64,000 nt of DNA from Levilinea saccharolytica. GTDB taxonomy: Bacteria; Chloroflexota; Anaerolineae; Anaerolineales; Anaerolineaceae. The translations under genes were made by a program, and so were the position numbers. Below the pieces are notes generated by a model. That model did no database searches and was not told the DNA's origin. It saw only the letters and a program-made list of their open reading frames with translations. Shown piece after piece: positions 128 to 19,700 of this stretch (positions are counted from its first letter, which is position 1; the number at the start of each line of letters is the position of its first letter). The stretch lies in assembly GCF_001306035.1 (NCBI RefSeq), contig NZ_LGCM01000002.1, positions 1-64,000 on the forward strand. The letters run 5' to 3'.

Positions 128-862
128 TTGAAGCGCAAACCGCGTGAACTGTCCGGCGGTCAGCGCCAGCGTGTGGCTGTGGGCCGCGCCATCGTTCGCG
201 AGCCGAAAGTCTTCCTCTTTGATGAGCCCCTTTCTAACCTGGACGCCAAGCTGAGAGTGCAGACCCGTGCGGAAATCAGCAAACTGCACCAGCGCCTGCA
301 GACCACCTTCATTTACGTGACCCACGATCAGACGGAAGCCATGACCATGGCCACCCGTATCGCGGTCATGAACAAAGGCGTTCTGCAGCAATTAGATACG
401 CCCCAGCAGCTGTACGACCGCCCCAACAACCTGTTCGTGGCGGGCTTCATCGGCTCCCCGGCGATGAACTTCTTCCCGGCGCACATCCGCAAAGACGGCG
501 CTGCGCTGTACGTGGACACCAATGAATTTGCGGTGAAGATCCCCGAAAATCGGGCGGAAGTGTACCAGCATCTGGTGGGCAAAGAAGTCATCTTCGGCCT
601 GCGCCCCGAAGACATCCATACCCCGGAATACGCGCCGCCAGGCATTCACGCTGCGCCGGTGGAAGCCAAGGTGGATGTGACCGAGTTGATGGGTAATGAA
701 ATCTTCCTGTACCTGGTGAGCGGCAAGAACAACTTCACGGCTCGCGTGGATCCGCGCACCCGGGTGACGATTGGCTCGCAGACGCAGATGGTCTTCAATA
801 TGGACAACCTCCATATCTTCGATCCCAGCCAGGATCGGGACAACCCCACGGCTGTCCGCTAG
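128..862 (+). pseudogene. Sugar ABC transporter ATPase (MalK/UgpC/MsmK type), 5'-truncated
   Basis: This is the C-terminal two thirds of a CUT1-type importer ATPase. Visible parts are the LSGGQ signature (residues 8-12), Walker B ([12 protein letters not shown]), the H-loop (YVTHDQTEA) and a C-terminal TOBE-like regulatory domain (about residues 120-240, with GLRPEDI). The Walker A P-loop and the Q-loop are absent, so about 130 residues are missing compared with the family's usual 360-380. The frame upstream of the TTG at 128 stops at 104-106 and is not MalK-like; it reads into the IS end at 1-127. Without the P-loop this fragment cannot hydrolyse ATP. It is followed by a strong terminator at 884-914. 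The call of gene disruption depends on the junction being real. Confidence 0.8.
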
Positions 863-883
863 ACCAGATATTTTGTTCGCAGG

Positions 884-919
884 TTGTAGCGCAAGAGTCT
901 CTCTTGCGCTACAATTTTT
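884..919 (+). terminator. Rho-independent terminator after the malK-type gene
   Basis: A perfect inverted repeat with 14-bp arms (884-897 and 901-914) and a 3-nt loop is followed directly by a run of T. It closes the transporter unit and insulates the comB-like gene that starts at 971. Confidence 0.9.
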
Positions 920-970
920 AAGGATACCCAGCGCCTGCGGGCGCAGCCAGAAAGGACGGGTGATTCGCTG

Positions 971-1663
971 ATGCAGATTGAACAATACGGCTTGAAGGAA
1001 TGTGAAAAGATCCGCGGCGGGGCGGTGGTGGTGGACGTGATCCGCGCGTTCACCACGGCGGCTTATGCCTTTGCGGCTGGGGCGGAAAAGATTGTGCTGG
1101 CGGCCACGGTGGAAGAAGTGTTGGAGATCCAGCGCAGCCTGCCGGGGTCGTTGGCGATGGGAGAGGTGGGGGGCATGCCCGTGGAAGGTTTCGCCTTGTG
1201 GAATTCGCCGGTGCAGCTTCAACACATGGATTTGAGCGGCAAGACCCTGGTGCAGCGCACCAGCGCCGGAACCCAGGGGGCCGTGCGCACGCGCAACGCC
1301 ACGCACATGGCGGTGGGCAGCTTTGTGGTGGCGGCTGCCACCGTCCGGCTGGTGCAGTCGTGGGGGGTGGACAGCCTGGGCTTTGTCATCACCGGCTCTG
1401 AGGCCAATTCGGGCGGGTATGAGGACGCCGCTTTTGCAGATTATGCCCAGGCGCTGCTGGAGGGGCAGACACCGGACGCGCAGACGTACCTGCAGCGGGG
1501 GCTGCGCTGGCGCGAATCGTATGCACATTTGCAGGATGAATGGACCGAACGGATGCTGGCGGACCTGGCGCTTTGCCTGGAAGCCGACCGTTTTGATTTT
1601 GCCATGCCGGTGCAGCGTGAGAACGGCCTGCTGGTGGTGCGGCGTACCCCGCCCGGATGGTGA
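971..1663 (+). CDS. 2-phosphosulfolactate phosphatase family protein (ComB-like)
   Basis: The 230-residue protein has the ComB family pattern: VVVDVIRAFTTAAYAFAAGA near the N terminus, then GEVGGMPVEGFALWNSP, and TSAGTQGAV in place of the usual TTNGT. ComB hydrolyses 2-phosphosulfolactate in coenzyme M synthesis, but the family is widespread in bacteria that do not make coenzyme M, so the substrate here is unknown. The Shine-Dalgarno sequence is weak and distant (AAGGAC at about 953). It lies 23 bp upstream of rnhA on the same strand, with which it probably shares a transcript. The family call is confident, the substrate is not. Confidence 0.75.
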   Translation: MQIEQYGLKECEKIRGGAVVVDVIRAFTTAAYAFAAGAEKIVLAATVEEVLEIQRSLPGSLAMGEVGGMPVEGFALWNSPVQLQHMDLSGKTLVQRTSAGTQGAVRTRNATHMAVGSFVVAAATVRLVQSWGVDSLGFVITGSEANSGGYEDAAFADYAQALLEGQTPDAQTYLQRGLRWRESYAHLQDEWTERMLADLALCLEADRFDFAMPVQRENGLLVVRRTPPGW

Positions 1664-1686
1664 GTTGAGATGAAAGCGGTGAGCCG

Positions 1687-2181
1687 ATGAGCGAGGTGGT
1701 GGTGTATACGGATGGGTGCAGCCTGGGCAACCCTGGGCCGGGGGGGTATGGGGTGGTGATTCAGGCTGAGGGTCAGAAGCGTGAGCTGATGGGCGGCTTT
1801 CGGCGCACCACCAACAACCGCATGGAGCTGCGGGCGGTGGTGGAAGGTCTGCGCGCCTTGCCGGAGGGCAGCCGGGTGCGGCTGTATTCCGATTCGCGTT
1901 ATGTGGTGGATGCGGTTAATTTAAACTGGCTGAAAAGCTGGCAGGCGCGTTCCTGGAAAAAGGCGGACGGCAAGCCGGTGCTGAACGCGGACTTGTGGAA
2001 GGCCCTGGTGCAGGAGATGCGGCGGCACGCTCAGGTGAGCTTTGTGTGGGTGGAAGGGCACGCGGGCAACCCCGGCAACGAGCGCTGCGACCGGCTTTCC
2101 AACGCAGCTGCGCGCGGAGACCATTTGCAGGTGGACACGGGTTATGAGGGCGCTGAAAAAGAACCGCCCCGGTTGTTCTAG
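1687..2181 (+). CDS. rnhA: Ribonuclease HI
   Basis: A cytoplasmic enzyme that cuts the RNA strand of RNA-DNA hybrids. The 164-residue sequence shows the full active site: Asp9 (YTDGCSLGNPGPGG), Glu47 (NNRMELRA), Asp69 (YSDSRYV), His125 and Asp135 (EGHAGNPGNERCD). Length is close to the E. coli enzyme (155 residues), with a short Pro/Glu-rich tail after about residue 150. It starts 23 bp after the ComB-like gene and ends about 40 bp before the convergent membrane-protein gene. Confidence 0.95.
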   Translation: MSEVVVYTDGCSLGNPGPGGYGVVIQAEGQKRELMGGFRRTTNNRMELRAVVEGLRALPEGSRVRLYSDSRYVVDAVNLNWLKSWQARSWKKADGKPVLNADLWKALVQEMRRHAQVSFVWVEGHAGNPGNERCDRLSNAAARGDHLQVDTGYEGAEKEPPRLF

Positions 2182-2218
2182 GGGCGGCGGATCAACAGCA
2201 GAGCGGTTCTGGCGGGGG

Positions 2219-2875
2219 TCAGCGCAGTTTGCGCGCGAAAAAGGCCAGAAGCAGCGCGCCCAGCACGGTGAACAGCCCCATCGCAATGAAGGCATCCTGC
2301 CAGAAGCGCATGGGGAAGAGGCGGATGAGCGAATCGCTGTAGAGGAACAGCCAGGTGTCGCCGGTGAAAAACAGGCGGTGGAAGAGGGTGAAGAGGGCGT
2401 TGAAGGACAGAGCCACCGCCAGCAGGATGGCGCTGACCAGCCCCAGAGTCCAGATTCCCCCGCGGCTGAGGGCACGGCCGTAGCCAGCCAGACGGCGGGC
2501 ACGCCAGGCCCACACCCCCACGCCCAACAGCACCCCGGTGAGAACCCAGCCGACGGTGAAGGCTTTTTGCACCAGAATTTTTACATCCAGCATGTGGCTC
2601 AACTCGCGGGCGTTATAGAGGGGCGTTCCGTCCGCCAGGGGGATTTCTTCCAAAAAGGTCAAATCGGAATCGTTCACCAGATACTCCAGCGAGAGGCTGC
2701 CGTAGTGCAGGCGGTCTTGCAGGGTGAAGCCGTAAGGGTCAGCAGGGAAGCCCGGCAGGCGGTATTCCACGTTGAGAAACGCGGGGGTAAACAGCAGGCG
2801 GATGGCGGTGAGGATGAGCCAGAAGGGCACAGCCAGGCTGAGCAGGGTTCGCAGGAGGGGGCGCAGAATTTTCAT
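2219..2875 (-). CDS. TIGR01906 (DUF1461) family integral membrane protein
   Basis: The 218-residue protein has four likely membrane segments (about 8-30, 103-123, 140-165 and 190-212) with an extracytoplasmic loop between the first two that contains the family's HMLDVK motif. The biochemical role of the family is unknown. The ATG at 2875 was chosen because it overlaps the stop of the upstream gene in an ATGA, the usual coupling in this window; an ORF extension to 2932 would lie inside the upstream gene. Its co-transcription with a membrane-bound spermidine-synthase-like protein gives no firm functional hint. Confidence 0.8.
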   Translation of the reverse strand: MKILRPLLRTLLSLAVPFWLILTAIRLLFTPAFLNVEYRLPGFPADPYGFTLQDRLHYGSLSLEYLVNDSDLTFLEEIPLADGTPLYNARELSHMLDVKILVQKAFTVGWVLTGVLLGVGVWAWRARRLAGYGRALSRGGIWTLGLVSAILLAVALSFNALFTLFHRLFFTGDTWLFLYSDSLIRLFPMRFWQDAFIAMGLFTVLGALLLAFFARKLR

Positions 2876-4422
2876 TGGACGGCTTCCGGATTGGCAAAGA
2901 GATAGCGGACGATCATATCGTTGGTGATCCACTCGATGGGGGCCAGGTCGTCGGTGAAGACCACGCCGGGTTCGGGGGCGGGCTGCAGGGCGGCCAGGGT
3001 CAGGCGGGCGGTTTCGGTGAGCAGGGGGTGGGCCTGGGCGCTGTCTTCCAGATAGACAATGTTGTTGATGAGATTGTCAGGCGTGGTAGGCTGCACCGTG
3101 GCGTAGAGGATAGAATTAAAGGTGTTGGGGATATCCATGACGTGGATGGAGGGGAAGATCTCGCCGATGGTGGCGGCCAGGGAGTTGATGAGGCGGCGGT
3201 CTTCGGGGGCGCGGCCCACGTTGATGACCAGCACGCCGTCGGCGCTGAGATGATCGTGGGCGGTCTGGAAAAATTCACGGGTGGTGAGGTGGGCGGGGAT
3301 GTAGGGCGGGCGGTAAGCGTCCACAGAGATGATCTGATAAGTGTGCGGGCTGTGTTCCAGCGCCCAGCGCCCATCCTGCACGATGACGTTGAGGTTGGGC
3401 ATGGTCATGCCGAAGTACTGCTGCCCGGCGCGCACGATCTCGGGGTCAATTTCGATGCCGTCAATCTGCACCGGCCCAAACACGGCGGTGGCCTGGCGGG
3501 CGGTGGTGCCCGCGGCCAGCCCCACGATGGCGATGCGCTTCACATTGGCGGGGTCGTAGGGGGCAGGGTTAAAGAAAGGCCCCACCAGCACCTGTTCCCA
3601 GGGGCCAAAGTAGCGCAGGGTGTCGGGGTGGTAAATGGAATGGACGCCCTGTCCTTCGTTGAGGCGCAGGAGGTGGTAGCCGTTTTCTTCCAGCACCTGA
3701 ATGTAATTGTAAGCAGAATCTTTTTCGAAGATCAGGCCCTGGGTGGTTTTGTCGGTGCCGGGCAGACCGCGCACCAGCAAAAAGATCACCACAACCGGCG
3801 CCCACAAGTAAGGCAGCAGCTTGCGCCAGCCGGCCGCGAACCACAGGCCAAACAGAGCGAAGGCCATCAACAGGATGCTGAGCGCCAGGAAGGTGCGGTA
3901 GATGCCGATGAGGGGGACGAGCACCAGCACGGGCAGAAAGGTGCCCACGAAGGACCCCAGGGTGGAAACGGCGTAGATGCGCCCGGCCACGCCGCCCGCC
4001 TGGACGGTGCCTTGCAGCGCCAGACGCACGGCGAAGGGCGAGGCTGTGCCCAACAGGATGGTGGGCACGCTAAGCAGGATCATCACCGAGGCGAAGGAGC
4101 CGAAGAGGATGCCCAACTGGAGCTGGTCAAAGCCGTTGGCGGCCAGGCGCATGACCGGCCGGGCGATGAGGGGGATGACGGCGATGGCGATGGCCGCCCA
4201 GGTGAGGATCTGGTAAAAGGTGGTGTAGCGCGGCGAGCGGTCGGCCCAGGGGCCGCCCACAAAGTACCCAACGGCCAGGAAAATGAGGATGAGGCCGATG
4301 ATGCTGGCCCATACGAGGTTGCTGGTGCCGAAGACATTGCCCATCAGGCGTGAGGCGGCCATTTCGAGCGCCAGAGAGGTGAGGCCGGAGATGAAAACCG
4401 TCAGGTAGAGATATTTGCGCAT
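2872..4422 (-). CDS. Membrane-anchored spermidine synthase-like methyltransferase-fold protein
   Basis: This 516-residue protein joins an N-terminal membrane half (six to seven segments, residues 1-225, beginning with FISGLTSLALEMAASRLMG as in fused spermidine synthase-like proteins) to a soluble C-terminal Rossmann domain (about 235-440). The Rossmann part shows a nucleotide-binding loop variant (IVGLAAGTTARQ) and an acidic strand end (DGIEIDPEIV), with the later conserved DAYRPPYIP. Such fused proteins resemble SpeE, but many are not known to make spermidine. It is the first gene of a two-gene minus-strand operon, divergent from nnr, with a TATAAT at 4456-4451. Confidence 0.75.
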   Translation of the reverse strand: MRKYLYLTVFISGLTSLALEMAASRLMGNVFGTSNLVWASIIGLILIFLAVGYFVGGPWADRSPRYTTFYQILTWAAIAIAVIPLIARPVMRLAANGFDQLQLGILFGSFASVMILLSVPTILLGTASPFAVRLALQGTVQAGGVAGRIYAVSTLGSFVGTFLPVLVLVPLIGIYRTFLALSILLMAFALFGLWFAAGWRKLLPYLWAPVVVIFLLVRGLPGTDKTTQGLIFEKDSAYNYIQVLEENGYHLLRLNEGQGVHSIYHPDTLRYFGPWEQVLVGPFFNPAPYDPANVKRIAIVGLAAGTTARQATAVFGPVQIDGIEIDPEIVRAGQQYFGMTMPNLNVIVQDGRWALEHSPHTYQIISVDAYRPPYIPAHLTTREFFQTAHDHLSADGVLVINVGRAPEDRRLINSLAATIGEIFPSIHVMDIPNTFNSILYATVQPTTPDNLINNIVYLEDSAQAHPLLTETARLTLAALQPAPEPGVVFTDDLAPIEWITNDMIVRYLFANPEAVQ

Positions 4423-4450
4423 GAAGTCCTCATTTCAGAATAGTGGCTGA

Positions 4451-4493
4451 ATTATACCGTAAGCGCAAGATGTGCACGGTTGCGCGCTATAAT
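4451..4493. promoter_or_regulatory. Divergent promoter region between the SpeE-like gene and nnr
   Basis: Two consensus -10 boxes face away from each other: TATAAT on the minus strand (4456-4451, 29 bp before the SpeE-like start) and TATAAT on the plus strand (4488-4493, 45 bp before nnr). Neither has a good -35 box at 16-18 bp. A TTGCGC-type hexamer occurs near both (minus strand 4468-4463; plus strand 4480-4485), which may be coincidence. Confidence 0.5.
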
Positions 4494-4537
4494 AGGGGGT
4501 ACAGCAGACGGTCTGCAAAAATGCCTGAGGAGGATGG

Positions 4538-6154
4538 ATGATGAAATTGGTGACGGTGGCCGAGATGCGGGCGATGGAAGCGGAGGCAAACGCGCGCGGG
4601 GTCAGCTATGAAACGATGATGGAACGAGCCGGTTTGGGGGTGGCGCGTTTTGTAAATGAAAATTTGTACGTGGGCGAGGATGAAAAGATCGCGGTGGGGC
4701 TGGTAGGCAGCGGCAACAACGGCGGCGACGCTTTGGTGACGCTGGCGGCCCTGGCGCGCATGGGCTGGACGGTGCGGGCGTATTTGACCAGCGCACCGGA
4801 CCGCAGCCACCCGCTGATCAAGCGCCTGCTGGATTTTGACGCGGAATTGGTGGAGATGGCGCAGGACGCGGAATTTTCGCGTCTGGACGGCTGGCTGGAA
4901 TCGGCGGCGGTGATTTTGGACGGGGTGCTGGGCACGGGCATTCATCTGCCGCTGCGCCCAGAGACGGCGCGCCTGTTGGGGCATGTGGCCGAATTTGACC
5001 CGCCGGGGACGGTGGTGGCGGTGGACTGCCCTTCGGGGGTGGACTGCGAGAGTGGGGAGATGGCCGAGGAAACTATCCCGGCGGATGTGACCCTGTGCAT
5101 GGACGCGGTGAAAGTGGGGCTGATGCGCTTCCCGGCTTACGCGGCCATCGGCGATTTGCAGGTGATTGACCTGGAACTGCCGGAAGATTTGCCGACAGAG
5201 CAGGGCCTGCGGCGCAGTGTGGCGGATTACGACATGGTGGGCGAGCGCCTGCCGGTACGCGCGCTGGACGCGCACAAGGGCAGTTTTGGCACGGTGATGG
5301 CGGCGGTGGGCTCCATCCCCTACACGGGGGCGGCTTACCTGGCGGGCATGGCAGCTTACCGCGTGGGGGCGGGGCTGGTGCGCATGGCCGTGCCGGGGCC
5401 GCTGCACGCGGCGCTAGCTGGGAAATTCCCCGAGGCCACCTGGCTGCTGCTGCCGCATGAAATGGGCGTGATCGCCGCGGCGGGGGCCGAGCTGCTGCTG
5501 AAGAATCTGGATCGGGTGACGGCCCTGTTGGTGGGGCCGGGGTTGGGGTTGGAAGAGACCACCGGTGAATTTTTGGCCCATTTGCTGACGGGCAAATCCA
5601 GCAAGACCGCCCGCCATCCGCTGGGGTTCGGCAGTGCAGCCCAAAACCATGAAACTGCCGAGCATCTGGCGGCGCTGCCGCCGCTGGTGATGGATGCGGA
5701 CGGGCTGCGGCTGCTGGCGAAGATGGAAAATTGGCCCGCACGGCTGCCGGAAGGCTGCATTTTGACCCCGCACGCGGGGGAGATGGCGGCGCTGACGGGT
5801 TTGAGCGTGGAAGAAATTCAGGCGGAGCGCATGGCTGTGGCCGAGAAATACGCCCGCGAATGGGGGCAGGTGGTGATTTTGAAGGGGGCCCTGACAGTTG
5901 TGGCCGCGCCGGACGGGCGGGTGACGGTGATCCCCATCGCCACGCCGGCCCTGGCGCGGGCGGGCACGGGGGACGTTTTGGCGGGGGCGGCGGCCGGTTT
6001 CCGCGCCCAGGGGCTGGAGGCTTTTGACGCGGCGGTGTGCGCGGCCTTCATCCACGGCGAGGCGGGCCTGGCGGCCAGCCGCACCAGCGCCGAGGCTTCG
6101 GTGGTGGCGGGCGATCTGTTGCCGCTGATTCCGGCGGTGATGAGCCTGTTTTAG
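4538..6154 (+). CDS. nnr: Bifunctional NAD(P)HX epimerase / ADP- or ATP-dependent NAD(P)HX dehydratase
   Basis: Repairs NAD(P)H that has become hydrated (NADHX, NADPHX). The 538-residue protein has the epimerase half (YjeF_N, about 1-220; SGNNGGDAL at 58-66, then DGVLGTG and DCPSGVDCE) followed by the ribokinase-like dehydratase half (about 235-530; DADGL, LTPHAGEMAAL, VILKGALTVV, ARAGTGDVLAG with the catalytic Asp). Full length for the fused bacterial form. Start: ATG 4538 or the adjacent ATG 4541, both behind GAGGAGG. The neighbouring AT-rich island encodes two NUDIX proteins, which may also act on NAD-derived molecules, although the change in composition argues for a separate origin. Confidence 0.93.
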   Translation: MMKLVTVAEMRAMEAEANARGVSYETMMERAGLGVARFVNENLYVGEDEKIAVGLVGSGNNGGDALVTLAALARMGWTVRAYLTSAPDRSHPLIKRLLDFDAELVEMAQDAEFSRLDGWLESAAVILDGVLGTGIHLPLRPETARLLGHVAEFDPPGTVVAVDCPSGVDCESGEMAEETIPADVTLCMDAVKVGLMRFPAYAAIGDLQVIDLELPEDLPTEQGLRRSVADYDMVGERLPVRALDAHKGSFGTVMAAVGSIPYTGAAYLAGMAAYRVGAGLVRMAVPGPLHAALAGKFPEATWLLLPHEMGVIAAAGAELLLKNLDRVTALLVGPGLGLEETTGEFLAHLLTGKSSKTARHPLGFGSAAQNHETAEHLAALPPLVMDADGLRLLAKMENWPARLPEGCILTPHAGEMAALTGLSVEEIQAERMAVAEKYAREWGQVVILKGALTVVAAPDGRVTVIPIATPALARAGTGDVLAGAAAGFRAQGLEAFDAAVCAAFIHGEAGLAASRTSAEASVVAGDLLPLIPAVMSLF

Positions 6155-6157
6155 GTG

Positions 6158-6185
6158 TAGACAATTGATCACAATTATGTATAAT
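6158..6185 (+). promoter_or_regulatory. Candidate promoter of the NUDIX island
   Basis: TAGACA (6158-6163) and TATAAT (6180-6185) are separated by 16 bp, directly after the nnr stop. This is where the base composition turns AT-rich. If used, it gives a leader of about 250 nt before the first NUDIX gene; apart from this element I see nothing recognisable in 6186-6439. Confidence 0.5.
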
Positions 6186-6439
6186 CATTTAAGAAGTGGG
6201 ATAATAGGATCATGAATAACTCCTAAAATCAGACTTGATCCATAGTGGACAAGAAATTCACATTTTTGTAATTTGTTCGGGGGTTTCCTAAGTCAGTTGT
6301 TGTAATAAAGATACTCTACGGTTGCTTGCGGGGGTGATCATTTTGGCTATCTGTATCACGGTTTGGGGATTTAATAAATTAGAAACCGAGCTATTGCTTG
6401 CCAATTTCATATAGATTGCTGAAAAATTTTGAGGTTTCA

Positions 6440-7150
6440 ATGGATGAATCTCTCAATCGATACTTGCAGCTTATGCAAGAACGTCCCGACCTATTTCGCA
6501 ACCTGAATGAGCCAGGTGAAATCAGGATCATTCAAGACGCAGAGAGAATCCGTTTTGAACAAATGCGCCTACAGTCTGAAATGCAAGACAAAGGTCTACC
6601 AGAACACTATGTCGAAATCGGCGTCTTGTCTGAAGACCAGTGGTTTTGGGTGGTACGCGACCTGGTGGAATTTCCCGGCGGCAAGGTAGGCGGCTACATC
6701 CGTTTCATCAATCGCATGAGCCGCGGAGAAGGTGGTTTTAATGTGGTGATCATGTGTATCCATAATGATCAGGTGTTGATGATACGAAAATTTCGTCATG
6801 AAGAACGTGACTGGAGTTGGGAATTTCCGCGAGGTTTTGGAGAACCGGGTTTAAGCGCTGAAGAGAATGCCCAAAAAGAATTAGAAGAGGAGATCGGCGC
6901 GAAAGCCTTGCGCTTGACTTTGTTGACTCACGTGAATGAACAAAAAGGAGGGACTGCTGTTTTCCTTGCTGAACTTGATCCCGAACAGGAAATTATTCTA
7001 GACGCTGGCGAAGGACTAGCCAGCTACCGATGGGTTTCTCTGGCAGAACTGGAGGACCTGGTGAGACAAGGGAAACTCGCTGATTGGTTTTCGTTGTGGG
7101 CTTTTGCCTTGTTGGAATTAAGGATCAACGATAAACATCATTCTATCTAG
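6440..7150 (+). CDS. NUDIX hydrolase A, ADP-ribose pyrophosphatase-like
   Basis: A 236-residue NUDIX protein. The Nudix box lies around GFGEPGLSAEENAQKELEEE: the metal-binding EExG core (EEEIG) is kept, but the usual Glu seven residues into the box is Leu and the Arg of REL is Lys. The preceding DLVEFPGG...GGYIRF and WEFPRGFGEPG are shared with the second NUDIX gene at 8521. The start at 6440 has TGAGG five bases upstream; a TTG at 6398 is less likely. Family members cleave nucleoside diphosphates linked to X, often ADP-ribose; substrate here is unknown. AT-rich relative to neighbours; 21 bp before the unknown gene, so probably the first gene of a three-gene operon. Confidence 0.8.
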   Translation: MDESLNRYLQLMQERPDLFRNLNEPGEIRIIQDAERIRFEQMRLQSEMQDKGLPEHYVEIGVLSEDQWFWVVRDLVEFPGGKVGGYIRFINRMSRGEGGFNVVIMCIHNDQVLMIRKFRHEERDWSWEFPRGFGEPGLSAEENAQKELEEEIGAKALRLTLLTHVNEQKGGTAVFLAELDPEQEIILDAGEGLASYRWVSLAELEDLVRQGKLADWFSLWAFALLELRINDKHHSI

Positions 7151-7171
7151 TAATTTGTTAGGGAGGAAATT

Positions 7172-8509
7172 ATGCCTGGACGGTACTTTGGTGGACAATA
7201 TGATTCAGTAAAACAAGCAGCATATTTAGATTATGTAATTAATAATAACCCGGGAAAGCTACCTTACCTGGTCATTCTTGATCACTATACCGCAAGGTTA
7301 CGGCTGGATATTCTTCTAGGAGGAAACATTATACTTACAGATGCGATGTTTTTTGATGGATCGTATTTTCAAACATTGTTTTTACACAATGAAAAACGTG
7401 AAGATTTCATGAATTTTATTCGTTTACTTTCAATCGGTGGTGGTGCTCCATTAATTGAAATCCGACAGAGGAAAAGAACGGTAGCCGATACTCTAAAGAC
7501 AATGATTTATCGAGAAAATAGACCAAATGGATTCCTCTTTAGTTCTCTTAGCTCGGATTACCTTAAAACTAAAGTTGCAGAATCATTATCAAGCGCACAA
7601 AATAGCGGAAGGGATTTTGAAAGATGGGATGATTTTTTGCTAAATGCAGTAAATTATGCAGATGAAGAAATTGTTAAGGACGCCATAAAACAAAAAATCG
7701 ATGTTCTAAGATATATGGAAAATCTACCCCCAAATATTTTCCGCGCTTGGGAAGGGGTTTTTAACTTCCAAGATGTTTTGAGTGATGCGATAAATAAACA
7801 AAGGTTTAGAATTATCCGTACCGGAGACCCGGTCTTTGATAGTGTAATCAGTTCGATAGAAAACGAAATTACAAAGCAATATCCTGATCGAAGTAAGTTG
7901 CAAAATGAAATCGCTCAAAAAACTAGAATTTTTGCACGAAGACCAACAACTCCTGCTGAGGAAAAACTGGAACTGTTATGGGGACAATTTTTACAAGTCT
8001 ACAATAGAGCAATAGGAAAACAGCACTATTGTGATTCATTTGATATCGGAGAGATAGCAGTGAGAGGAGATAGAACCGGAACGATAATTGTCGAAGAACT
8101 ATCACAAGCAACCTTGCAAGCTTTGGCAAAAGATAGTTGGTTTGATTTTGGAAGAAAATATAACAACCTTAGCAAGTACAGGGAAGCATGGATTCGTGAG
8201 GTTTGGGATCTGGAACTTGGAAGAAAATCATCTATTACAGATGCTCGGAGAGCACTGGACAATCTATTAACGCAAATTCTTCGAGAGTACAGGATCAGGC
8301 CTACTATCGAGGATGTCGTCAAGGTTGTTGGCGGTGGTGCTTCAATTGATTCTGACTTGATGGATCCGGATGGGTTTTCCTTAGCGGTATCGACAAAAAT
8401 AATAAATATTCCTCTCCAGACTCTAGATTTGGTTAGAAGACAGTGGGTTTACTCTCGGGATAAAGCTAATCTAATTGAATATGGGCAAACATTTGAACAG
8501 GGTATTTAG
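7172..8509 (+). CDS. Protein of unknown function between two NUDIX genes
   Basis: The 445-residue soluble protein was not recognised. It follows a strong ribosome site (GGGAGG, 5 bp before ATG). An N-terminal block (residues 40-70: ILDHYTARLRLDILLGGNII followed by LTDAMFFDG) looks like a conserved core; the middle (90-280) is helical and charged, and the C-terminal part contains VVKVVGGGASIDSDL, a short Gly-rich stretch. There is no signal peptide, membrane segment, P-loop or obvious nuclease motif. Codon use is AT-rich. It sits between two paralogous NUDIX genes (gaps of 21 and 11 bp), so it very likely works with them, for example as the source or target of a nucleotide-derived molecule that they process; that is inference. 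Confidence 0.85.
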   Translation: MPGRYFGGQYDSVKQAAYLDYVINNNPGKLPYLVILDHYTARLRLDILLGGNIILTDAMFFDGSYFQTLFLHNEKREDFMNFIRLLSIGGGAPLIEIRQRKRTVADTLKTMIYRENRPNGFLFSSLSSDYLKTKVAESLSSAQNSGRDFERWDDFLLNAVNYADEEIVKDAIKQKIDVLRYMENLPPNIFRAWEGVFNFQDVLSDAINKQRFRIIRTGDPVFDSVISSIENEITKQYPDRSKLQNEIAQKTRIFARRPTTPAEEKLELLWGQFLQVYNRAIGKQHYCDSFDIGEIAVRGDRTGTIIVEELSQATLQALAKDSWFDFGRKYNNLSKYREAWIREVWDLELGRKSSITDARRALDNLLTQILREYRIRPTIEDVVKVVGGGASIDSDLMDPDGFSLAVSTKIINIPLQTLDLVRRQWVYSRDKANLIEYGQTFEQGI

Positions 8510-8520
8510 GTAATAATAAA

Positions 8521-9222
8521 ATGGCCTATAATGACACGTTCGATAACTATATTTCCATTTTGGAGCAAGTCCCCTATTTGGGGGAAAATTTCCAAGCACC
8601 GATAAAAATCATCAAAGATGAGGCCGCAATTCAAGTTTGGCAAGTCGAACAAAGAACAAAATTGACCCGTTCCGCTAAGGATCCAAAATGGGCGGATATC
8701 GGCATCATTTGTAATGACCCTTACGTGGTTATCCTTCGCGATTTAGTTGAATTTCCGGGTGGATTTCGCGGCGGGTATATCCGACTATATAATCGCGCTT
8801 ATCTTGAGGGTGGAGCAGCAGGCGTGGTGACTCTGCCAGTGAAGGATAATCAAGTTCTATTAATGCACAATTTCCGCCATGCCACTCGCGGATGGCACTG
8901 GGAAATTCCACGCGGTTTTGGTGAACCAGGCGTAGCAGCAGAAACTCAGGCCAGTGTTGAAGTCCAGGAAGAAATCGGCGTTGAGGTGGATGAACTGGTC
9001 AATCTGGGCTTATATTTCAACAATACTGGCCTGGAAGGCAACCCAATTTGGCTGTTCTTAGCACGAGTTAACCAGGATCCTGTGGTGAATGAAGAGATTG
9101 GTGTTGATAAACTTCGCTGGGTGGCGGTTGAGGAATTGGAAAGCATGATCGCAAATGCAGAGATCACGGATGGGTTCACAATCGCTGCATACACACGGGC
9201 GAAACTTCGCAGGTTAATCTAG
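8521..9222 (+). CDS. NUDIX hydrolase B, paralogue of the gene at 6440
   Basis: A 233-residue NUDIX protein clearly related to the one at 6440 (shared DLVEFPGG, GGYIR, FRHA/E, W-E-PRGFGEPG, EEIG). Its Nudix box keeps EEIG but has Val in place of both the first Glu and the Arg (GFGEPGVAAETQASVEVQEE), so it departs further from the consensus than copy A. The start has only a weak ribosome site 11 bp after the preceding stop, suggesting translational coupling. It ends the AT-rich operon, followed by a hairpin at 9241-9269. Confidence 0.8.
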   Translation: MAYNDTFDNYISILEQVPYLGENFQAPIKIIKDEAAIQVWQVEQRTKLTRSAKDPKWADIGIICNDPYVVILRDLVEFPGGFRGGYIRLYNRAYLEGGAAGVVTLPVKDNQVLLMHNFRHATRGWHWEIPRGFGEPGVAAETQASVEVQEEIGVEVDELVNLGLYFNNTGLEGNPIWLFLARVNQDPVVNEEIGVDKLRWVAVEELESMIANAEITDGFTIAAYTRAKLRRLI

Positions 9223-9240
9223 GCAGTAATAAATAGCGAA

Positions 9241-9269
9241 GGGGCTGTCTGTAAATTCCAGACAGCCCC
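9241..9269. terminator. Terminator hairpin between the NUDIX island and the YtxH gene
   Basis: A perfect 11-bp inverted repeat (9241-9251 / 9259-9269) with a 7-nt loop lies between two convergent units. It lacks a long T tract on either strand, so strength is uncertain; it may serve both directions. Confidence 0.65.
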
Positions 9270-9296
9270 GATTAATTGTAAGCTTGGAAAGGGGAT

Positions 9297-9668
9297 TTAG
9301 GCGGCGGCTTCTTCGGCCGTGTCAGACGCGGCTTTCTTGGCAGCGCCGATGCGCGAGGTAATCTTGGCTTTCTGTTCCTCAAGAACCACAGAGCCCTTCT
9401 GGCTCAGTTCCGAGGCGCGGGTCTTCGTGGTCTCGGCCAGCTCTTCAAAGCGGGCGCGGGCTTCGGCGGCGGCGGCTTCGGCGCGGGCATAGGCCTCGTC
9501 CACGGTTTCGCCGGTCTTGTCGCGCAGGACAATAGCTTTCTCTTTGATGACCGCACGGGTCTCTTCACCCGACTGGGGGGCCATTAACAGGGCGGCTACG
9601 GCGCCGGTGAGGCCGCCGACCACAAAACCGACCAAAAACGCACCAAATTCATCATGATTAGACATCAT
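9297..9668 (-). CDS. YtxH-domain small membrane protein
   Basis: A 123-residue protein with one Gly/Ala-rich membrane segment near the N terminus (about 9-31, FLVGFVVGGLTGAVAALLMAP), then APQSGEETR typical of YtxH proteins, and a long Ala/Glu/Lys-rich helix likely to form a coiled coil (40-123). YtxH proteins are envelope-associated stress proteins of unknown mechanism. A good ribosome site (AAGGAGAGA) precedes two ATG codons (9668, 9665). It lies 38 bp after the membrane-protein gene at 9707, same strand. Confidence 0.8.
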   Translation of the reverse strand: MMSNHDEFGAFLVGFVVGGLTGAVAALLMAPQSGEETRAVIKEKAIVLRDKTGETVDEAYARAEAAAAEARARFEELAETTKTRASELSQKGSVVLEEQKAKITSRIGAAKKAASDTAEEAAA

Positions 9669-9706
9669 TCTCTCCTTTTTCTGAGTACTGATCGAAAGTC
9701 CGTTGG

Positions 9707-10147
9707 TTAGCGGCCAGGCCGGAGCAGGTCAAACAGTTTGCGCAGCGCTGCCAGATATTCATTAAGTTTGATCACCGGTTCGGTCAGGTTGTTGCTTAAA
9801 AATGCGATCGTGCCGCGCAGGGTGCTCACGGTCTCCTGGGTGGAATCGAGGATCGGTTTGATCTCGGTTTGCAGCAAATTGATGAGGATGGCCAGCTGGA
9901 TGACCAAAATGACCAGGGCGGCGCCGATGACCAGGGCCTCGAGGGCCATGAAGATGATGAAGATATCGCGCACCTGGCTGGTGACCTGGGGGCCGGAATT
10001 GACCAGGGCGACCGTCCCGGCGATGAGGGCGGCCAGGATCAGCACGGCCACCACCCCAATGGTGATCATGCGGCGGCGGTCTTCCGGCGTGATGCTTTCG
10101 CTGGGAGGGGGCAGGGGGGTGGGTTCGGTTTCGGTCATTTCAGTCAT
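9707..10147 (-). CDS. Small membrane protein with two transmembrane segments
   Basis: The 146-residue protein has a Pro/Thr/Glu-rich cytoplasmic start, two hydrophobic segments (about 27-48 and 60-88) and an amphipathic tail ending LRKLFDLLRPGR. The tail resembles DUF948-type general-stress proteins that are often found beside YtxH proteins, but the match is only by pattern. The ATG at 10147 has GAGG six bases upstream; a longer TTG form starting at 10159 would include that site. A TATAAT lies just upstream on the same strand (10164-10159). Operon with the YtxH gene downstream. Confidence 0.7.
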   Translation of the reverse strand: MTEMTETEPTPLPPPSESITPEDRRRMITIGVVAVLILAALIAGTVALVNSGPQVTSQVRDIFIIFMALEALVIGAALVILVIQLAILINLLQTEIKPILDSTQETVSTLRGTIAFLSNNLTEPVIKLNEYLAALRKLFDLLRPGR

Positions 10148-10220
10148 AATTAACCTCAATTATATCATTTTTAAACATCCGTTTGATTGGAATTATATAA
10201 GAATTGTACCCGAGCAGCGA

Positions 10221-12291
10221 TCATTGGTTGGCGTCAATGCAGGCCTGAATTTCGGCGTCGGAGGGGGTGCCGCTGCCGATGCCAAAACAGGTCAGCCAAC
10301 AGCGCGAGGTGTGCATCAGCGGGCTGCGCAGGGTTTCCACCGTCATGCCCTGGCACACATGGCTGGATTCGGGCGGGGTAGTGGGGTTGTCGGCAGGCGG
10401 CGGCTCGGTGGAAAACTCCTCGGGGGGCGGGTAATCGTCCACCACCGGCGGGGGCAGCAGGCTGCCCAGGAAGGTGATCTGCAGGGTGATGTTGGCGGTC
10501 TGGTTGGGGTCGCGCAAGCTGGAACGGCTGTTGAAGGGGATCAGCAGCAGTTGGCTGAGGCCGCTGCCGGAGCCGTCGGGGCCGAAATCTTCAATGAACA
10601 TTTGCGAGCCGGTTTGGCTGGCGGGGTCGCGCGAGGAAAGATAGGCGAAGGGCGCTCCGGCCAGGGGGTAATATAGGCCGGAGGAACTCTCCAGCCCGTA
10701 GACCAGCACCCCGGCGTCTGCGGGGGCGTCCACGGCGATGATCACCTGGCTGGGTTGGGTGAAGGCCTCCAGGGTGTCGTCTTTTTCGGAGAAAGATAGG
10801 GACAGGGCCGCGGCCGAAAGTCCGCCCAGGCTGAAGCTGGCCTGCAGGGAGGCGGGTTCGCCCGCCAGAAGGGTGCCGGAGGCGGTGGAGGCGGCGGCGT
10901 TCAGCTTTTGATTGGGGGTGAAGCTGACGGTGTAGTCGCTGCCGTCAGCGGTGCGGGCGGCCTGGATGGCGGCTGCATGCGAGATGGGCGGACCGCCGAA
11001 GTCGGCGGAAAGGATGTAGGGGGTGGTGAAGAAGGTTTCCAAGAAGGGCACCCATTCCAGGCCGGGCGAGGAACCTTGCTGGTCGAGGGCGTTGTAGAGG
11101 GCTTCGTTGGCCGTGCCGGAGGGGGTTCCGGCGCGGAGCTGGTTGTAGATCTCCGCTACCCAGCGCTCGCCGTAGCGGGCGGCCAGGGCGCGCAGGAAGA
11201 AGCTGGCCCCGTAGCCGTGATTTTGGGCCTGATCCAGCGGGGCACCGAACAAGGGGTTTTCAAAGAAGCGGACGTTCTGCTGGGCGTTGGGGCTGATGTA
11301 GTCGGGGTTGCCCACGGCGGCGGCCTCAAACCAGGTGGCGGCGGCCTCATCCAGCCACAGGGTGGGCAGGGGGGAGACGGCTTTGGTGGCGGCCCAGCGC
11401 GGGTCGGCGGTGAATTGGGCCAGGTGAAGGAGTTCATGGCCGACGGTGGCCTGCAGCTCGGTGTACTGGTCGGTGAAAAAGCCTTCGTCGTAGAAGAAGC
11501 GGTTGGCCAACTGCAGGGTGCAGCTGGATGCGCCCAGGCGGCTGGGGACGAACAGCCCGGCTTTATCTTTGAGGGGCTGCAGGGTGACTTCAGTGACGGT
11601 GACGCCAGTAAAAGTGAAGTTGTAGTCTTCGATGAGCTGGCGCTGCTCTTCCAGCAGTTCCACGCCGCGGCGCACCATTTCGGCGTTGACCACGCGGCCG
11701 CGGTAGCTGACGCGGAAGTGATCGGAGACGAAGCCGTCGAACACCCAGCCGTTCTCGGCGCGGATGGTGACGGCGGTGGGGGCGGCGGCCTGGGCGGCGG
11801 GGCGGCGGGCTTGGGCGGCGAGCACACCCGCGCCGGAGGACATGCCCACGGGGCCGGTGCCAGAGTTCTCCAGCACGGCCAGCAGTTGACCGGCTTCGGC
11901 ATCCACCTGGGTGGGCAGCACGCGCACGTTGACGGCGGGGCCGCCGCTGGGGGAGAGCACCTCTTCTTCCAGGATCAGGTAAGTGTCGCCGGAGGAGAGG
12001 TATTCATCCGGCACGCTCAGGCCAATTTGCAGGGGGCCTTGCAGGCTCTCCAGCGGGCCGGAGAGGATCACCCCGCGGGAGCGGTAATCGGAGCCTTCCA
12101 CCTCGGCGGGGTCAGAATCCTCGCGGAAGAGCTCCAGTTCCAGGCTTTCGGGGGCGCGCGGCGGCGGGGTTCCAGACCCCATCCTGGGGGGAGATTTGCC
12201 CCTGGGCAGCCAGGGACTGCAGCTCGGCCCAGGTGTGCGGGCCGCTCTTGCCTTGCGGTCGGTTGAGGTACCAGCTAGGGTCGTTGGCCAT
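10221..12291 (-). pseudogene. GYF_2 / peptidase-MA-like protein split by a frameshift
   Basis: The likely start is ATG 12291, behind AGGAGG. The first 43 codons encode a GYF_2 (DUF4339)-like domain (WYLNRPQGKSGPHTWAEL, then VWNP). This frame stops at 12114-12112, while the frame one base away continues to 10221 for about 640 codons. That part has a peptidase-MA metalloprotease core: VGHELLHLAQF (HExxH) and LWLDEAAATWFEA, whose Glu is the likely third zinc ligand. The C-terminal region has Pro-rich linkers and a Cys-containing tail. One extra base, probably in the C/G runs at 12130-12182, explains the break. It could be a real mutation or a sequencing indel. The alternative start at ATG 12182 lacks a ribosome site. 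Confidence 0.75.
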
Positions 12292-12386
12292 GCGCGCCTC
12301 CTGGGGTTGGGTGCGGTGGGGATAGCATGATTATAGCCCCGCGGGCCAGCGCGCGGGGGGATTTTTAAAGGGGAAAGGGCGCGTGG

Positions 12387-15242
12387 CTACGGAACCCGGA
12401 AGACTTTCATGACCTCATCGCCGAGATGGTTGATGACCTTGACGGCGATACGCCCGGAGGCGGGTTTATCAAAGGGGCGCGAGAGGTCGCTGTTGAGGGT
12501 GGCCCAGGCTTCCTCATTGATCTCAGCTTTCAGCGAGGTCTTGAGGGCGGAATAGGGGTCGTTGGCCCCCAGGAAGTAGGCCTGGCGCACGAAGAAACTT
12601 TCTTCGTTGTAGTCGGTATCAATGAACCAGCAGGCGATGCCCTCGGCGCTGTCGCTGCGCACTGCACCCGTGGAGGGGTCGAACACGTCTACCCCGTTGA
12701 CTTTGACCTGAATCTGCCCGCTTTCGAGGGTGCGGATATCTATATCCGGTTCGCCGAAGATGACAAACAGGTTGCCTTTGCCGGTGTTCTTGAGATCCTG
12801 AGCCATGTGCAAGTCGGCGTTCATGCGCGCTTTGAGCACGGGGATGGCGCCCAGGCGGCTAAAATCGGTGGAGCGGGCGTCATAATTGAAGGCGCAAGCC
12901 ACCAGTACGTCAAAACCGGCGTCGCCCGCCTCGCGCGCCGCGGCTACCAGATCGGGACGGCTGACGGTGCCGAATTCGGGGCCGATGAAGATGCCTGCCC
13001 GCCGCTCGCGCCCGCTGTCTTTGCCGCCTTCAAAGTAACGGCCTTCGGCGCAGATGTAGGTGCCGGGCCAGGGGGTGAGGGAGAAGAAGGTGATGCGGTC
13101 TTCTTTGTGGGCCTGCTGCACCCCGGCGGTTTTAAGATTTTCCAGGATCATCTGCTCGAAGCTCTGCCCCGGGGCATAGCCGGCTTTGCCCTCGGCGACG
13201 AAATCAATCAGTTCGTCGTTTTCGTCCACGCCCAGCACGCGGTGGGGGGAGAGGCTTTCGACGGTGAAGGGGCCGGCCACGCGCACTTTGCTCTTATCTT
13301 CATAGGGCTTGTCGTAGAGATATTCGTATTCGGCTTTGGCGGCGATGGAGGCGTCAATTTCTTTTTGGCGGGCGATGCGCAGACGCCACCATTCGGCCAG
13401 CAGGGCCTGGCCACCCTCACCCTGGCCGCCTTCAGCCTGGCCGCCCTCACCCTGGCGACCCTCACCCTTGCCCTCTCCCTCCCAGGGAGAGGGAGGCTGG
13501 GAGCGGGGGATTTCCCATTCCTGCCAGTTTTGCTGAAAGTGGGCGTTGATTTGGGCGCGAACTGGCTCCATCTGTTCCTGGTAGGTGTCGTAGATGACGT
13601 CAATTTCGGCGTTGTTGGCGATGGTGCTGAGCATGATGTGGGGGACGCGCTCGTAGACGAAGCCCTGGCGGATGTTGCCGTAGGTGGGGTCATTGGACGG
13701 GAGGGTGCGGGTGAGCTCGGCTTCTTTTTGCTGGCCGTCGCGGCTGTCTTTGAGCAGGTAAAAGGGGTAGCGCGCACCCATCACCCGCGCCCGCGCCAGG
13801 GCCAGGGCCACGCGCGAGGTGTCGATGGTGATCCAGCGGCGGCCCCACTGCTCGGCCACATAGGCGGTCGTGCCAGAGCCGCAGGTGGGATCCAAAACTA
13901 AATCCCCTGGATCCGTGGTCATTAATATACATCTCTTTATTGCTTCAGGGTTTGTTTGAACAACATATACCTTAGGTTCATGAAAACTACCTGTAATAGT
14001 ATCAGTCCAAATGTTATTGGTTATTGAGATTGGAAAATCATCAATGAAACTGCGGAATTGAATCGATGAACGAGTGGATTGAATTCGAGATGCTTTAGCT
14101 ACTCTTTGCATCCCGTTTAATGTGACTTTCCAATGGCTATTAGCGGGAGGGTAATATATACCACCTTCGAAGATGAATGGCTGTTTTTCTGCGGCCGCAC
14201 CTTGTGAAATTAAACTTACAAGTCGATATTGATGAAATGAAGTGTCGGTGATCCCATTCTCAATTTCGTCATGGGTTAAATTTATTCTAGTTCTGCCGTC
14301 TTCTGACAACGCTTGACGGTATAAATTGAAAGTCTTAATTTCAGATTTTGCTTTATATAAGGGGCGATACTTGACCTGTTCGGACTTAGAATACCAGAGG
14401 ATATTATCTATTACCGATGCTAAGTAATTAGATGTCTCGTAAGGGGCTGTCTGAAAATTTATGACAGCAATAAACCTGTCTTCTCCAAATATTTCATCCA
14501 ATAAGGTTCGTACCAAATGGGTGTTTTCATCGCCCATCTGAACGAAAATTGATCCTGTGGGAGAAAGAAGATCACGCGCGGAAATTAAGCGATCACGCAA
14601 ATACGATAAATATGAATGAATTCCTTCTCGCCACGTATCTCGAAAAGCCTTAACCTGCTCCGGTTCCCTTGTGATTTGATCATAGCTTCCGTCCTTCACA
14701 TCCCGGCTGGTAGTTGACCATTGGAAATTGGAATTAAATTTAATCCCATAGGGCGGGTCAATGTAAATCATCTGCACCTTGCCGCGCAGGCCCTCGCGCT
14801 CGGCCAGCGAGGCCATCACCTGCAGGCTGTCGCCCAGGATCATGCGGTTGGTCCAGTTGGCGTCGTGCTGGTAAAACTCGGTTCGGGCATCGGGGCTTTG
14901 GGGCAGGCCGTTGAAGTCGGAGAAGAAGTCCAACTGCTGCGGCTCCAGTTCTTTCTTGCGGGCTTCGGTCTGGCGGCGCAGATCATCCACCAGCACCTTG
15001 GGGTGGATTTTTTCCTGGATGTAGATGGGCGGGGCCAGCACCACCAGGTCGGAATCGTCCAGCAGGTCTTTGCCGCGCCAGATGAGCTGGGGGTCGAGGT
15101 CGGGGTTGCGGCGCTGGTAGGCCACCTGCACGGGGGTGAGCTGGTCTTCGCTGAGGACGGATTGCAGCTCGGCGGTGGGGATGTGGCGGCGGGAAGCGCT
15201 GGTGTGGCGGATGGTTTCGATTGTTTTTTTCTTGTCAGCCAT
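12387..15242 (-). CDS. Site-specific DNA methyltransferase, type III Mod-like (beta class)
   Basis: The 951-residue protein methylates DNA as partner of the Res-like gene at 16414. Motif order is beta-class: DPPYG (162-166) comes before the SAM-binding LDPTCGSGTTAYVAEQWGRR (about 443-462). The region between them, encoded by 13920-14755, should contain the target recognition domain and is strikingly AT-rich compared with both flanks. At about residues 585-615 an in-frame low-complexity insertion (PPSPWEGEGKGEG then GEGGQ repeats) is encoded by a palindromic repeat. The start has AAGGA about 8 bases upstream. It is separated from the rest of the operon by the 127-bp repeat array. Confidence 0.88.
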   Translation of the reverse strand: MADKKKTIETIRHTSASRRHIPTAELQSVLSEDQLTPVQVAYQRRNPDLDPQLIWRGKDLLDDSDLVVLAPPIYIQEKIHPKVLVDDLRRQTEARKKELEPQQLDFFSDFNGLPQSPDARTEFYQHDANWTNRMILGDSLQVMASLAEREGLRGKVQMIYIDPPYGIKFNSNFQWSTTSRDVKDGSYDQITREPEQVKAFRDTWREGIHSYLSYLRDRLISARDLLSPTGSIFVQMGDENTHLVRTLLDEIFGEDRFIAVINFQTAPYETSNYLASVIDNILWYSKSEQVKYRPLYKAKSEIKTFNLYRQALSEDGRTRINLTHDEIENGITDTSFHQYRLVSLISQGAAAEKQPFIFEGGIYYPPANSHWKVTLNGMQRVAKASRIQSTRSSIQFRSFIDDFPISITNNIWTDTITGSFHEPKVYVVQTNPEAIKRCILMTTDPGDLVLDPTCGSGTTAYVAEQWGRRWITIDTSRVALALARARVMGARYPFYLLKDSRDGQQKEAELTRTLPSNDPTYGNIRQGFVYERVPHIMLSTIANNAEIDVIYDTYQEQMEPVRAQINAHFQQNWQEWEIPRSQPPSPWEGEGKGEGRQGEGGQAEGGQGEGGQALLAEWWRLRIARQKEIDASIAAKAEYEYLYDKPYEDKSKVRVAGPFTVESLSPHRVLGVDENDELIDFVAEGKAGYAPGQSFEQMILENLKTAGVQQAHKEDRITFFSLTPWPGTYICAEGRYFEGGKDSGRERRAGIFIGPEFGTVSRPDLVAAAREAGDAGFDVLVACAFNYDARSTDFSRLGAIPVLKARMNADLHMAQDLKNTGKGNLFVIFGEPDIDIRTLESGQIQVKVNGVDVFDPSTGAVRSDSAEGIACWFIDTDYNEESFFVRQAYFLGANDPYSALKTSLKAEINEEAWATLNSDLSRPFDKPASGRIAVKVINHLGDEVMKVFRVP
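13402..13493. repeat. Palindromic and short tandem repeat inside the methyltransferase gene
   Basis: Four near-copies of a CCCTCACCCTGGCC-like 15-18-mer (about 13408-13465) run into a 10-bp perfect palindrome (13471-13480 / 13484-13493, loop CCC). On the coding strand it is read as PSPWEGEGKGEG plus GEGGQ repeats, a pattern seen where dispersed palindromic repeats invade genes in frame. Length is a multiple of three, so the reading frame is kept. Confidence 0.7.
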
Positions 15243-16021: not shown

Positions 16022-16417
16022 TCACCGCACATACCGGCGAATGCCGTGCTTTAGAATTTTCATATTGAAATTGATCAGCAGGCCAATCTTTCGATCTGCT
16101 AATTTCAGATAGGTAAGTATTTGAGCCTCGTGCACCCCGGTCAACTGCTCCACGACTTTGAGTTCAACTAAAACCTGGTTTTCCACCAACAGATCTATGC
16201 GGTAGGCAGTCTCAACCGTCAGGTCTTTGTATACGAGGGGCAGCAGCAGTTGTTCGTCCACATGCAGGCCTAAAGACCGTAACTCGTAGGCCAGGCAGCG
16301 CTCATAAGCCGTTTCCAGCAAGCCAGGACCCAAATGGCGATGAACCTCAATCGCAGCTCCAATGATTTTTCCGGTGAGTTCGTCCGGTGGGGGCGGAGGC
16401 CATGCATTCACCATCAT
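16022..16417 (-). CDS. GxxExxY family protein
   Basis: The 131-residue protein carries the name-giving motif GLLETAY (GxxExxY, within LGPGLLETAYERCLAYEL), followed by YRIDLLVENQVLVELKVVE, a PD-(D/E)xK-like strand pattern (D...ExK), and LLINFNMKILKHGIRRYV at the end. The family's function is unknown; the fold suggests a nuclease-like core. ATG 16417 overlaps the stop of the upstream restriction gene in an ATGA, with AAGGAGC upstream, so the two are translated together. The tandem array starts directly behind its stop codon. Confidence 0.88.
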   Translation of the reverse strand: MMVNAWPPPPPDELTGKIIGAAIEVHRHLGPGLLETAYERCLAYELRSLGLHVDEQLLLPLVYKDLTVETAYRIDLLVENQVLVELKVVEQLTGVHEAQILTYLKLADRKIGLLINFNMKILKHGIRRYVR

Positions 16418-19479: not shown

Positions 19480-19700
19480 GTTTACGCGCCTTTGACGAAA
19501 TTCAGAATGTCCGTATGGATAGCAAACATCCATGTGCGTTTCAAGAGAAGTGACGGGCCGTCGAATATCAGCAATTTCGGGTTATGCTGCTGCCATTCCC
19601 CACCTGGTTGTTGAATCAAGACAAAAGCCACCTCAGTGGAAGCTTACCGTTAATCCTAGGTGAGGAAGGCAAAAATGTCAATACGGCGTTTCCCCCGCAG

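Follow-up and report, generated by a model that had tools for sequence, protein, structure and literature searches.

Several described systems resemble, in part, a three-gene cassette that lies near the start of a 64,000-nucleotide stretch of Levilinea saccharolytica DNA (contig NZ_LGCM01000002.1, positions 1 to 64,000 of the forward strand; hereafter, the window). In this cassette, genes for two NUDIX hydrolases (NUDIX-A and NUDIX-B, or A and B) bracket a gene for an unannotated protein, which we will call X. In CBASS, the effector Cap16, with a transmembrane and a NUDIX part, ties NUDIX to a membrane-type effector in nucleotide-signalling defence (PMC10419184). The anticodon nuclease PrrC is an accessory effector whose gene is linked to a type I restriction system; its restriction-modification (R-M) partner silences it, and a phage anti-restriction factor activates it (PMC2610378). 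And NUDIX domains occur in NAD-linked conflicts (PMC9503650 and PMC7159879). We propose that our cassette moves horizontally as a defence-type module of the form NUDIX-A, payload, NUDIX-B, in which the payload is exchangeable and the NUDIX enzymes control its nucleotide-type ligand; we put the probability of this proposal as a whole at roughly 0.36. That the cassette is a defence module of some kind is likely, judging by its context, and it probably represents a new, nucleotide-linked type of such modules.

The cassette is most directly connected to Pycsar. In one related locus (L070; we number loci L and genomes G), PycTM and a weakly PycC-like protein fill the slot between A and B, and another (L072) has PycTM, a PycC-like gene in two pieces, and B. 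These are the only loci with PycTM among those scanned. However, the window's X matches neither PycTM nor PycC (PADLOC and Pfam), and to our knowledge, NUDIX is not part of Pycsar. The cassette resembles PrrC in that a putative accessory effector is genetically linked to type I restriction systems, but in Pfam, X matches neither nucleases nor ABC-type proteins, it is accompanied by two NUDIX genes, and the window's copy is outside any type I operon. In contrast to Cap16, the NUDIX domains of the cassette are proteins in their own right, and none of the scanned proteins matched a CD-NTase. PADLOC's candidate model PDC-S07 matches both of the window's NUDIX proteins (E = 3.7e-9 and 3.8e-5), but only in the NUDIX region (residues 118-220 and 107-209), so that the N-terminal extension and X lie outside it. 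Finally, the best curated profile neighbour of both A and B is NudE, and their neighbours in PDB include NudF and ADP-ribose pyrophosphatases. But A and B score far under the NCBIfam cut-off for the NudE equivalog (41.4 and 32.4 versus 169 bits), and they have about 90 extra N-terminal residues and an altered Nudix box. In the open literature, among the matches listed, we recognised no paper as describing the NUDIX bracket; most subscription papers fall outside the scope of that search.

A sequence-only reading of the window had suggested that the cassette is a self-contained system, an idea that was to fall if homologs of the middle gene never had NUDIX genes next to them. They do have them, which supports the idea. 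We scanned genomes with the NUDIX alignment and obtained 55 loci (L035/L059, L036/L060, L038/L076, and L044/L085 came from two sources and are counted once). In 33 of the 55, an X-type gene precedes a NUDIX gene on its own strand, at a distance of no more than 100 bp. In two more (L062 and L065), SDR-type genes lie between X and NUDIX, and in L085, X is divergent. No adjacent X was found in the other 19, which include Streptomyces loci with an upstream CHAT-type protein, the Pycsar-type loci L070 and L072, two loci in which X scores are weak (L096 and L106), and loci with unclassified neighbours. Because the profiles for X were derived from NUDIX neighbours, the 33 of 55 is partly circular, and searches that start from X are the fair test. 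X-type proteins fall into several branches (X1, X1b, XT, and X2 to X6, with the window's X in X2). Searches that started from X6 found it in 11 of 198 genomes, always with NUDIX downstream; X5 was found in 4 of 200 genomes, with NUDIX downstream in three; and X2 was found in 2 of 350 genomes, both with NUDIX downstream. Across independent genomes, NUDIX is downstream in 12 of 13 cases (X6, 10/10; X5, 1/2; X2, 1/1), which leaves out the seeds (G400, G401, and G000) and also G555, whose X5 (581 bits, with the same start) looks the same as L101.

The full order A-X-B is found in 14 loci (the window, L055-L062, L064, L066, L068, L071, and L076), with some variation: L060 has an extra gene after A, A is broken over two frames in L061, an SDR gene precedes B in L062, and L076 has a divergent second NUDIX. 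B without A is seen in L063, L065, L067, L069, L072, L073, and L037, some of which are at contig ends. The smallest unit seen is an X with a single overlapping or adjacent NUDIX gene, in X5 and X6 loci.

Evidence for exchange comes from the 22 relatives that we mapped (L037, L055-L073, L075, and L076, mostly filed as Chloroflexi, Chloroflexota, or Anaerolineales; L058 is filed as Caldithrix and L067 as bacterium). Type I restriction genes lie beside 10 of the 22. Five sit between hsdR and hsdM-hsdS, unlike the window's cassette: L062 and L065 (without A) are almost gapless within the hsd operon, and L057, L060, and L070 have small intervening open reading frames (ORFs). The others have a type I gene on one side, as identified by similarity (L058, L059, L071, and, as a short HsdR remnant of 27 bits, L037) or by Pfam (L061). 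The genes that separate A from B in L070 encode PycTM (50.3 bits in Pfam and 103 bits in PADLOC), the PycC-like protein, and an SDR. L070 and L062 have related restriction genes (hsdR is 94.6% identical and hsdM is 81.8% identical), yet one has Pycsar-type genes and the other has X4, with no BLAST match between these payloads. Similarly, L037 and L071 share six downstream genes that are 98-100% identical, but L037 has X4 and L071 has X1, and only L071 has A. These two pairs show that the middle gene is exchanged while NUDIX-B, and usually NUDIX-A, stay. The sequence-only reading had considered a role in defence to be possible, and the context points the same way (the type I genes next to 10 of the 22, the Pycsar-type genes, TIR domains, and one HerA neighbour); it is from this context that we infer the role itself.

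The cassette is also absent where its flanks are conserved. In another genome of the same genus (G802), whose nnr gene is 98% identical, the window aligns on both sides of the cassette (positions 128-6154 at 92% and 9287-12168 at 89%), and 74 bp with a terminator-like hairpin replaces the cassette stretch. In three other members of the family (L153, L154, and L155), nnr adjoins the homolog of the gene at 9297-9668, at a distance of 52 to 109 bp, again with no cassette. Furthermore, as the sequence-only reading had noticed, the block is AT-rich: positions 6158-9269 are 41.6% G+C, as compared to 60.0% for the window, and the lowest value for a non-overlapping stretch of equal length elsewhere in the window is 49.8%. 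The gene for X is just 37.7% G+C. At third codon positions, the G+C fraction is 0.46, 0.29, and 0.46 for NUDIX-A, X, and NUDIX-B, as compared to 0.81 for nnr. Given the empty site in relatives and the low G+C content, gain of the cassette is a simpler reading than its loss. Because the empty site is in the same genus, acquisition by transfer, which had been proposed from composition, does not rest on G+C content alone. We saw no target duplication in the inspected flanks of the cassette and no tRNA gene in positions 1-30000 that might mark the insertion. The source genome has a single X, and outside the cassette it has two NUDIX matches, both weak.

The cassette does lie directly after nnr, an NAD(P)H-repair gene, but this adjacency looks incidental. 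We considered a functional link and rejected it, because four relatives have nnr without the cassette and because the relatives' mapped cassettes lie beside other genes. We also rejected an origin of A and B by duplication within this genome, as their two clades span 34 sequences.

X remains uncharacterised, as the sequence-only reading had it: there was no match above a curated cut-off in Pfam and none in PADLOC or NCBIfam, matches in PHROGs were at chance level, and nothing among PDB sequences was below E = 0.8. Close relatives are rare. For X2, searches of viral contigs, plasmids, and phages led nowhere, as did a first scan of genome contigs (which used short exact peptide patterns only), and 400 genomes of the phylum had none beyond the window's own X. 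Among 350 genomes of the order there was one more (G1230, cut by the contig end, E = 6.9e-15), and the closest full relative, at 190.7 bits, is in a metagenome-assembled genome of Herpetosiphon (L056). NUDIX-B is directly downstream in all three X2 members, and NUDIX-A is upstream in both of those where that side is visible.

The branches of X share an order of motifs: first DS[VA][KR] or DNQ, then NQxxDS or a similar motif after a hydrophobic strand, then R[SN], and last YN. HHalign joins X1, X1b, and XT to each other (99.9-100), X3 to X4 (93.8), and X4 to X5 (95.3), but it does not join X1, X2, or X6 to the remaining branches (at most 20). For X2 versus X1 and X3-X6, the HHalign values are at most 2 and profile scores are not above shuffles; the motif order agrees. 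Our tentative placement of the window's X2 with the other branches rests on this motif order and on two predicted structures, in which strands and helices follow each other in a similar sequence. The motif pattern matches 14 of 1,100 ORFs, each of which is upstream of a NUDIX gene, and 7 of 20,000 shuffles of P0002, but the pattern is post hoc: it was loosened on P0002 and L056, and it has no matches in X1 or X3.

Some branches carry additional modules. Two relatives in Clostridia (L094 and L104) have an X1-type core that follows a fused TIR_2 domain at the N terminus. Hydrophobic C-terminal segments are present in 6 of 6 X5 proteins, 5 of 12 X1, 2 of 7 X1b, and 1 of 2 X3, and are absent from the two TIR fusions. 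In L056, a DUF4062-TIR gene begins 75 bp after NUDIX-B.

Comparison of predicted structures gave no clear match. The model of X1 has a good core (mean pLDDT 77.3; all but one of the first 27 ten-residue blocks reach at least 86), and the model of X2 is weak (mean pLDDT 60.8). With Foldseek at E ≤ 0.001, neither model had a match in PDB and the X1 model had no match among viral models, although a missing fold match does not show that the fold is new. The best VIA Z scores (4.2 for the X1 model and 5.4 for the X2 model) are in the range that this tool calls common. For X1, the VIA results include Hef (Z = 4.2), cyclodipeptide synthases (Z = 3.9 over 159-167 aligned residues), and, at Z = 2.2, a PIN-domain protein. 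We considered readings of X as a PIN nuclease or as tRNA-synthetase-like, but adopted neither. In the X1 model, the conserved residues D24, N70-R71, and R140 are at the ends of strands or a few residues after them, and R210, Y214, K241, D245, and Y248 are on two helices. We read this placement of polar residues as what would be expected of a ligand-binding or active site.

Both flanking proteins are NUDIX paralogs, as had been stated: they score 57.2 and 43 bits against PF00293 (cut-off 21.1 bits; E = 2.3e-15 for A and 5.7e-11 for B), and 77 of 232 aligned positions are identical. In a tree of 53 chosen NUDIX sequences, A and B belong to separate clades, with 15 sequences in the A clade (local support 0.994) and 19 in the B clade (0.967). 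(The supports are FastTree's; the tree was rooted on L076-C by choice, and it does not cover every locus: it leaves out, for example, the later-found L055-A, L066-B, and L068-B, as well as many Streptomyces copies.) The full Nudix box consensus is GX5EX7REUXEEXGU. The window's proteins depart from it: the consensus E and R are L and K in A and V and V in B. However, all 53 sequences have acids at the three acidic positions of REUXEE (52 have EEE, including the window's A and B, and one has EDE). These acidic residues imply, but do no more than imply, that the cassette handles a nucleotide-derived molecule, as the sequence-only reading suggested. The loss of the consensus E and R in both of the window's enzymes would also fit NUDIX domains that sense a ligand or act as structural partners instead of clearing a signal, with X being activated through them when a metabolite linked to a nucleoside diphosphate (NDP) changes. 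NUDIX domains in NrtR-type regulators sense ADP-ribose (PMC9503650), and mutating the NUDIX of Cap16 did not abolish its toxicity (PMC10419184). But pure sensors need not keep the three acidic positions, which are kept in 53 of 53 sequences, and we consider a sensor role to be improbable.

As to how an exchangeable defence module of this kind might work, we tentatively suggest a nucleotide ligand with the NUDIX proteins as its off-switch. X would be a sensor-effector, whose core, with its conserved polar residues, would bind a nucleotide-type ligand. The attached module (in branches other than the window's, hydrophobic C-terminal segments or an N-terminal TIR) would damage the membrane or NAD+, which would stop the infected cell (abortive infection). 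The NUDIX pair would hydrolyse or edit the NDP-linked ligand of X and so keep the module off, until infection, or failure of the partner restriction system, let the ligand build up and turn the module on. A broader idea, which we consider unlikely, is that NUDIX-A and NUDIX-B are a general bracket for exchangeable immune payloads and a guard layer in restriction operons, with X as a new superfamily whose members sense or synthesise nucleotide ligands, and with an undescribed NDP-linked second messenger that the NUDIX pair clears.

The pairing of X with one NUDIX gene in X5 and X6 loci could instead reflect self-protection, as in a toxin-antitoxin system: X or its effector would make a toxic nucleotide product, which the NUDIX proteins would detoxify in the producer. 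TIR effectors act on NAD+, which also fits. But there is no known product, and both NUDIX genes are kept around the Pycsar-type genes of L070 as well, so we give self-protection little weight, about as little as the sensor role. The least probable of the alternatives is a metabolic island, in which sugar nucleotides would be the substrates of the NUDIX, SDR, and RmlC-type gene products and the nearby restriction genes would reflect no more than a shared insertion site: SDR genes in L062, L065, L070, and L072, the dTDP-sugar epimerase in L065, and the window's NAD(P)H-repair neighbour nnr would fit, but the swap with a Pycsar-type pair, the TIR and CHAT partners, and the patchy occurrence (4/200, 11/198, and 2/350 genomes, seeds included) would not.

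Several observations weigh against the proposal of an exchangeable defence module. In the window itself, the cassette adjoins nnr and is outside any restriction operon, with the nearest R-M gene starting 3.1 kb downstream; the X2 protein has no hydrophobic segment at the threshold used; and no TIR gene lies beside the cassette. The window's X and its relative from L056 score 2.5 and 4.3 bits against the other branches, which is within the range of shuffles. Among the relatives, 12 of 22 have no type I gene within the stretch seen. The PycC-like match in L070 is weak (E = 5.6e-4), with no Pfam cyclase domain and nothing in PDB sequences. The SDR or RmlC-type genes in four loci fit metabolism as well. 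And beside a broken X5 in G441, the stretch covered shows no NUDIX at E = 1e-6, with one match of 17 bits.

If our proposal is correct, then a family that is scattered widely, and whose scanned members are unnamed by Pfam, NCBIfam, PADLOC, and PHROGs, becomes testable as immunity, and the substrates of the NUDIX proteins would give a chemical clue to the signal of X. Also, because X and Pycsar-type genes replace each other at the same place in related restriction operons, their swap would be a natural experiment in how signalling defences become modular and linked to restriction.

Table 1. Features of the cassette and its edges, in window coordinates.
Feature	Position	Strand	Basis
Acquired stretch, absent from a same-genus genome	6155..9286	.	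Window 128-6154 and 9287-12168 align to L152, nothing between
Sigma-70-like promoter, TAGACA-16-TATAAT	6158..6185	+	11/12 consensus; consensus match only
NUDIX-A hydrolase, 236 aa	6440..7150	+	Pfam NUDIX 57.2 bits; ATG behind TGAGG; A clade
Nudix box of A, GFGEPGLSAEENAQKELEEEIG	6833..6898	+	Three acidic positions kept; consensus E, R are L, K
X, 445 aa, unannotated middle protein, branch X2	7172..8509	+	Motifs DSVK, IILTDAMFFDG, RS, YN
NUDIX-B hydrolase, 233 aa	8521..9222	+	Pfam NUDIX 43 bits; B clade
Nudix box of B, GFGEPGVAAETQASVEVQEEIG	8914..8979	+	Three acidic positions kept; consensus E, R are V, V
Intrinsic-terminator-like hairpin after the cassette	9241..9269	+	11-pair stem, 8 G-C pairs

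The three genes form a tight operon on the + strand, with gaps of 21 and 11 bp, just as the sequence-only reading described. It had placed the start of NUDIX-A at 6398, which is an upstream TTG; the ATG in Table 1 is likelier. It had also given the cassette its own promoter and terminator. Both sites are present, but neither class is above shuffles in number (8 versus 6.6 for promoter-like sites and 4 versus 2.9 for terminator-like sites).

Downstream of the cassette are a methylase gene (12387-15242) and a gene for a ResIII protein (16414-19533). Since the alignment to G802 ends at 12379, some 3 kb beyond the cassette, these two genes also look acquired. Another island, of restriction type, seems to begin near 12380.

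As for the other loci, a HerA-type ATPase gene in L038/L076 precedes A-X3 and the divergent second NUDIX. Within the hsd operon of L065, X4 is separated from NUDIX-B by an RmlC-type dTDP-sugar epimerase gene and an SDR-like gene (2883-4615). An X6-NUDIX pair occurs in L113, which is filed as a viral contig; searches of viral contigs with NUDIX-B alone or with the X5 and X1 profiles led nowhere, and searches for X6 in plasmids and phages and for X1b and X5 in plasmids gave nothing useful. In Streptomyces and Embleya (L078, L084, L087, L095, L103, and the plasmid locus L053), NUDIX follows a protein of about 900 residues instead of X. This protein matches Pfam's CHAT in L078 and is annotated as CHAT in L053, where it has no Pfam match. 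We considered whether the Streptomyces CHAT proteins might be homologs of X, but rejected this because the HHalign probability is at most 0.4.

A leader of about 250 bases (6186-6439) separates the promoter-like site from NUDIX-A. A scan of positions 6100-9350, leader included, gave no match in Rfam. A 14-base near-repeat, GTAATTTGTT[CA]GGG, is found in the leader (6268-6281) and again just 5' of the ribosome site of X (7150-7163); it is possibly regulatory, or else due to chance.

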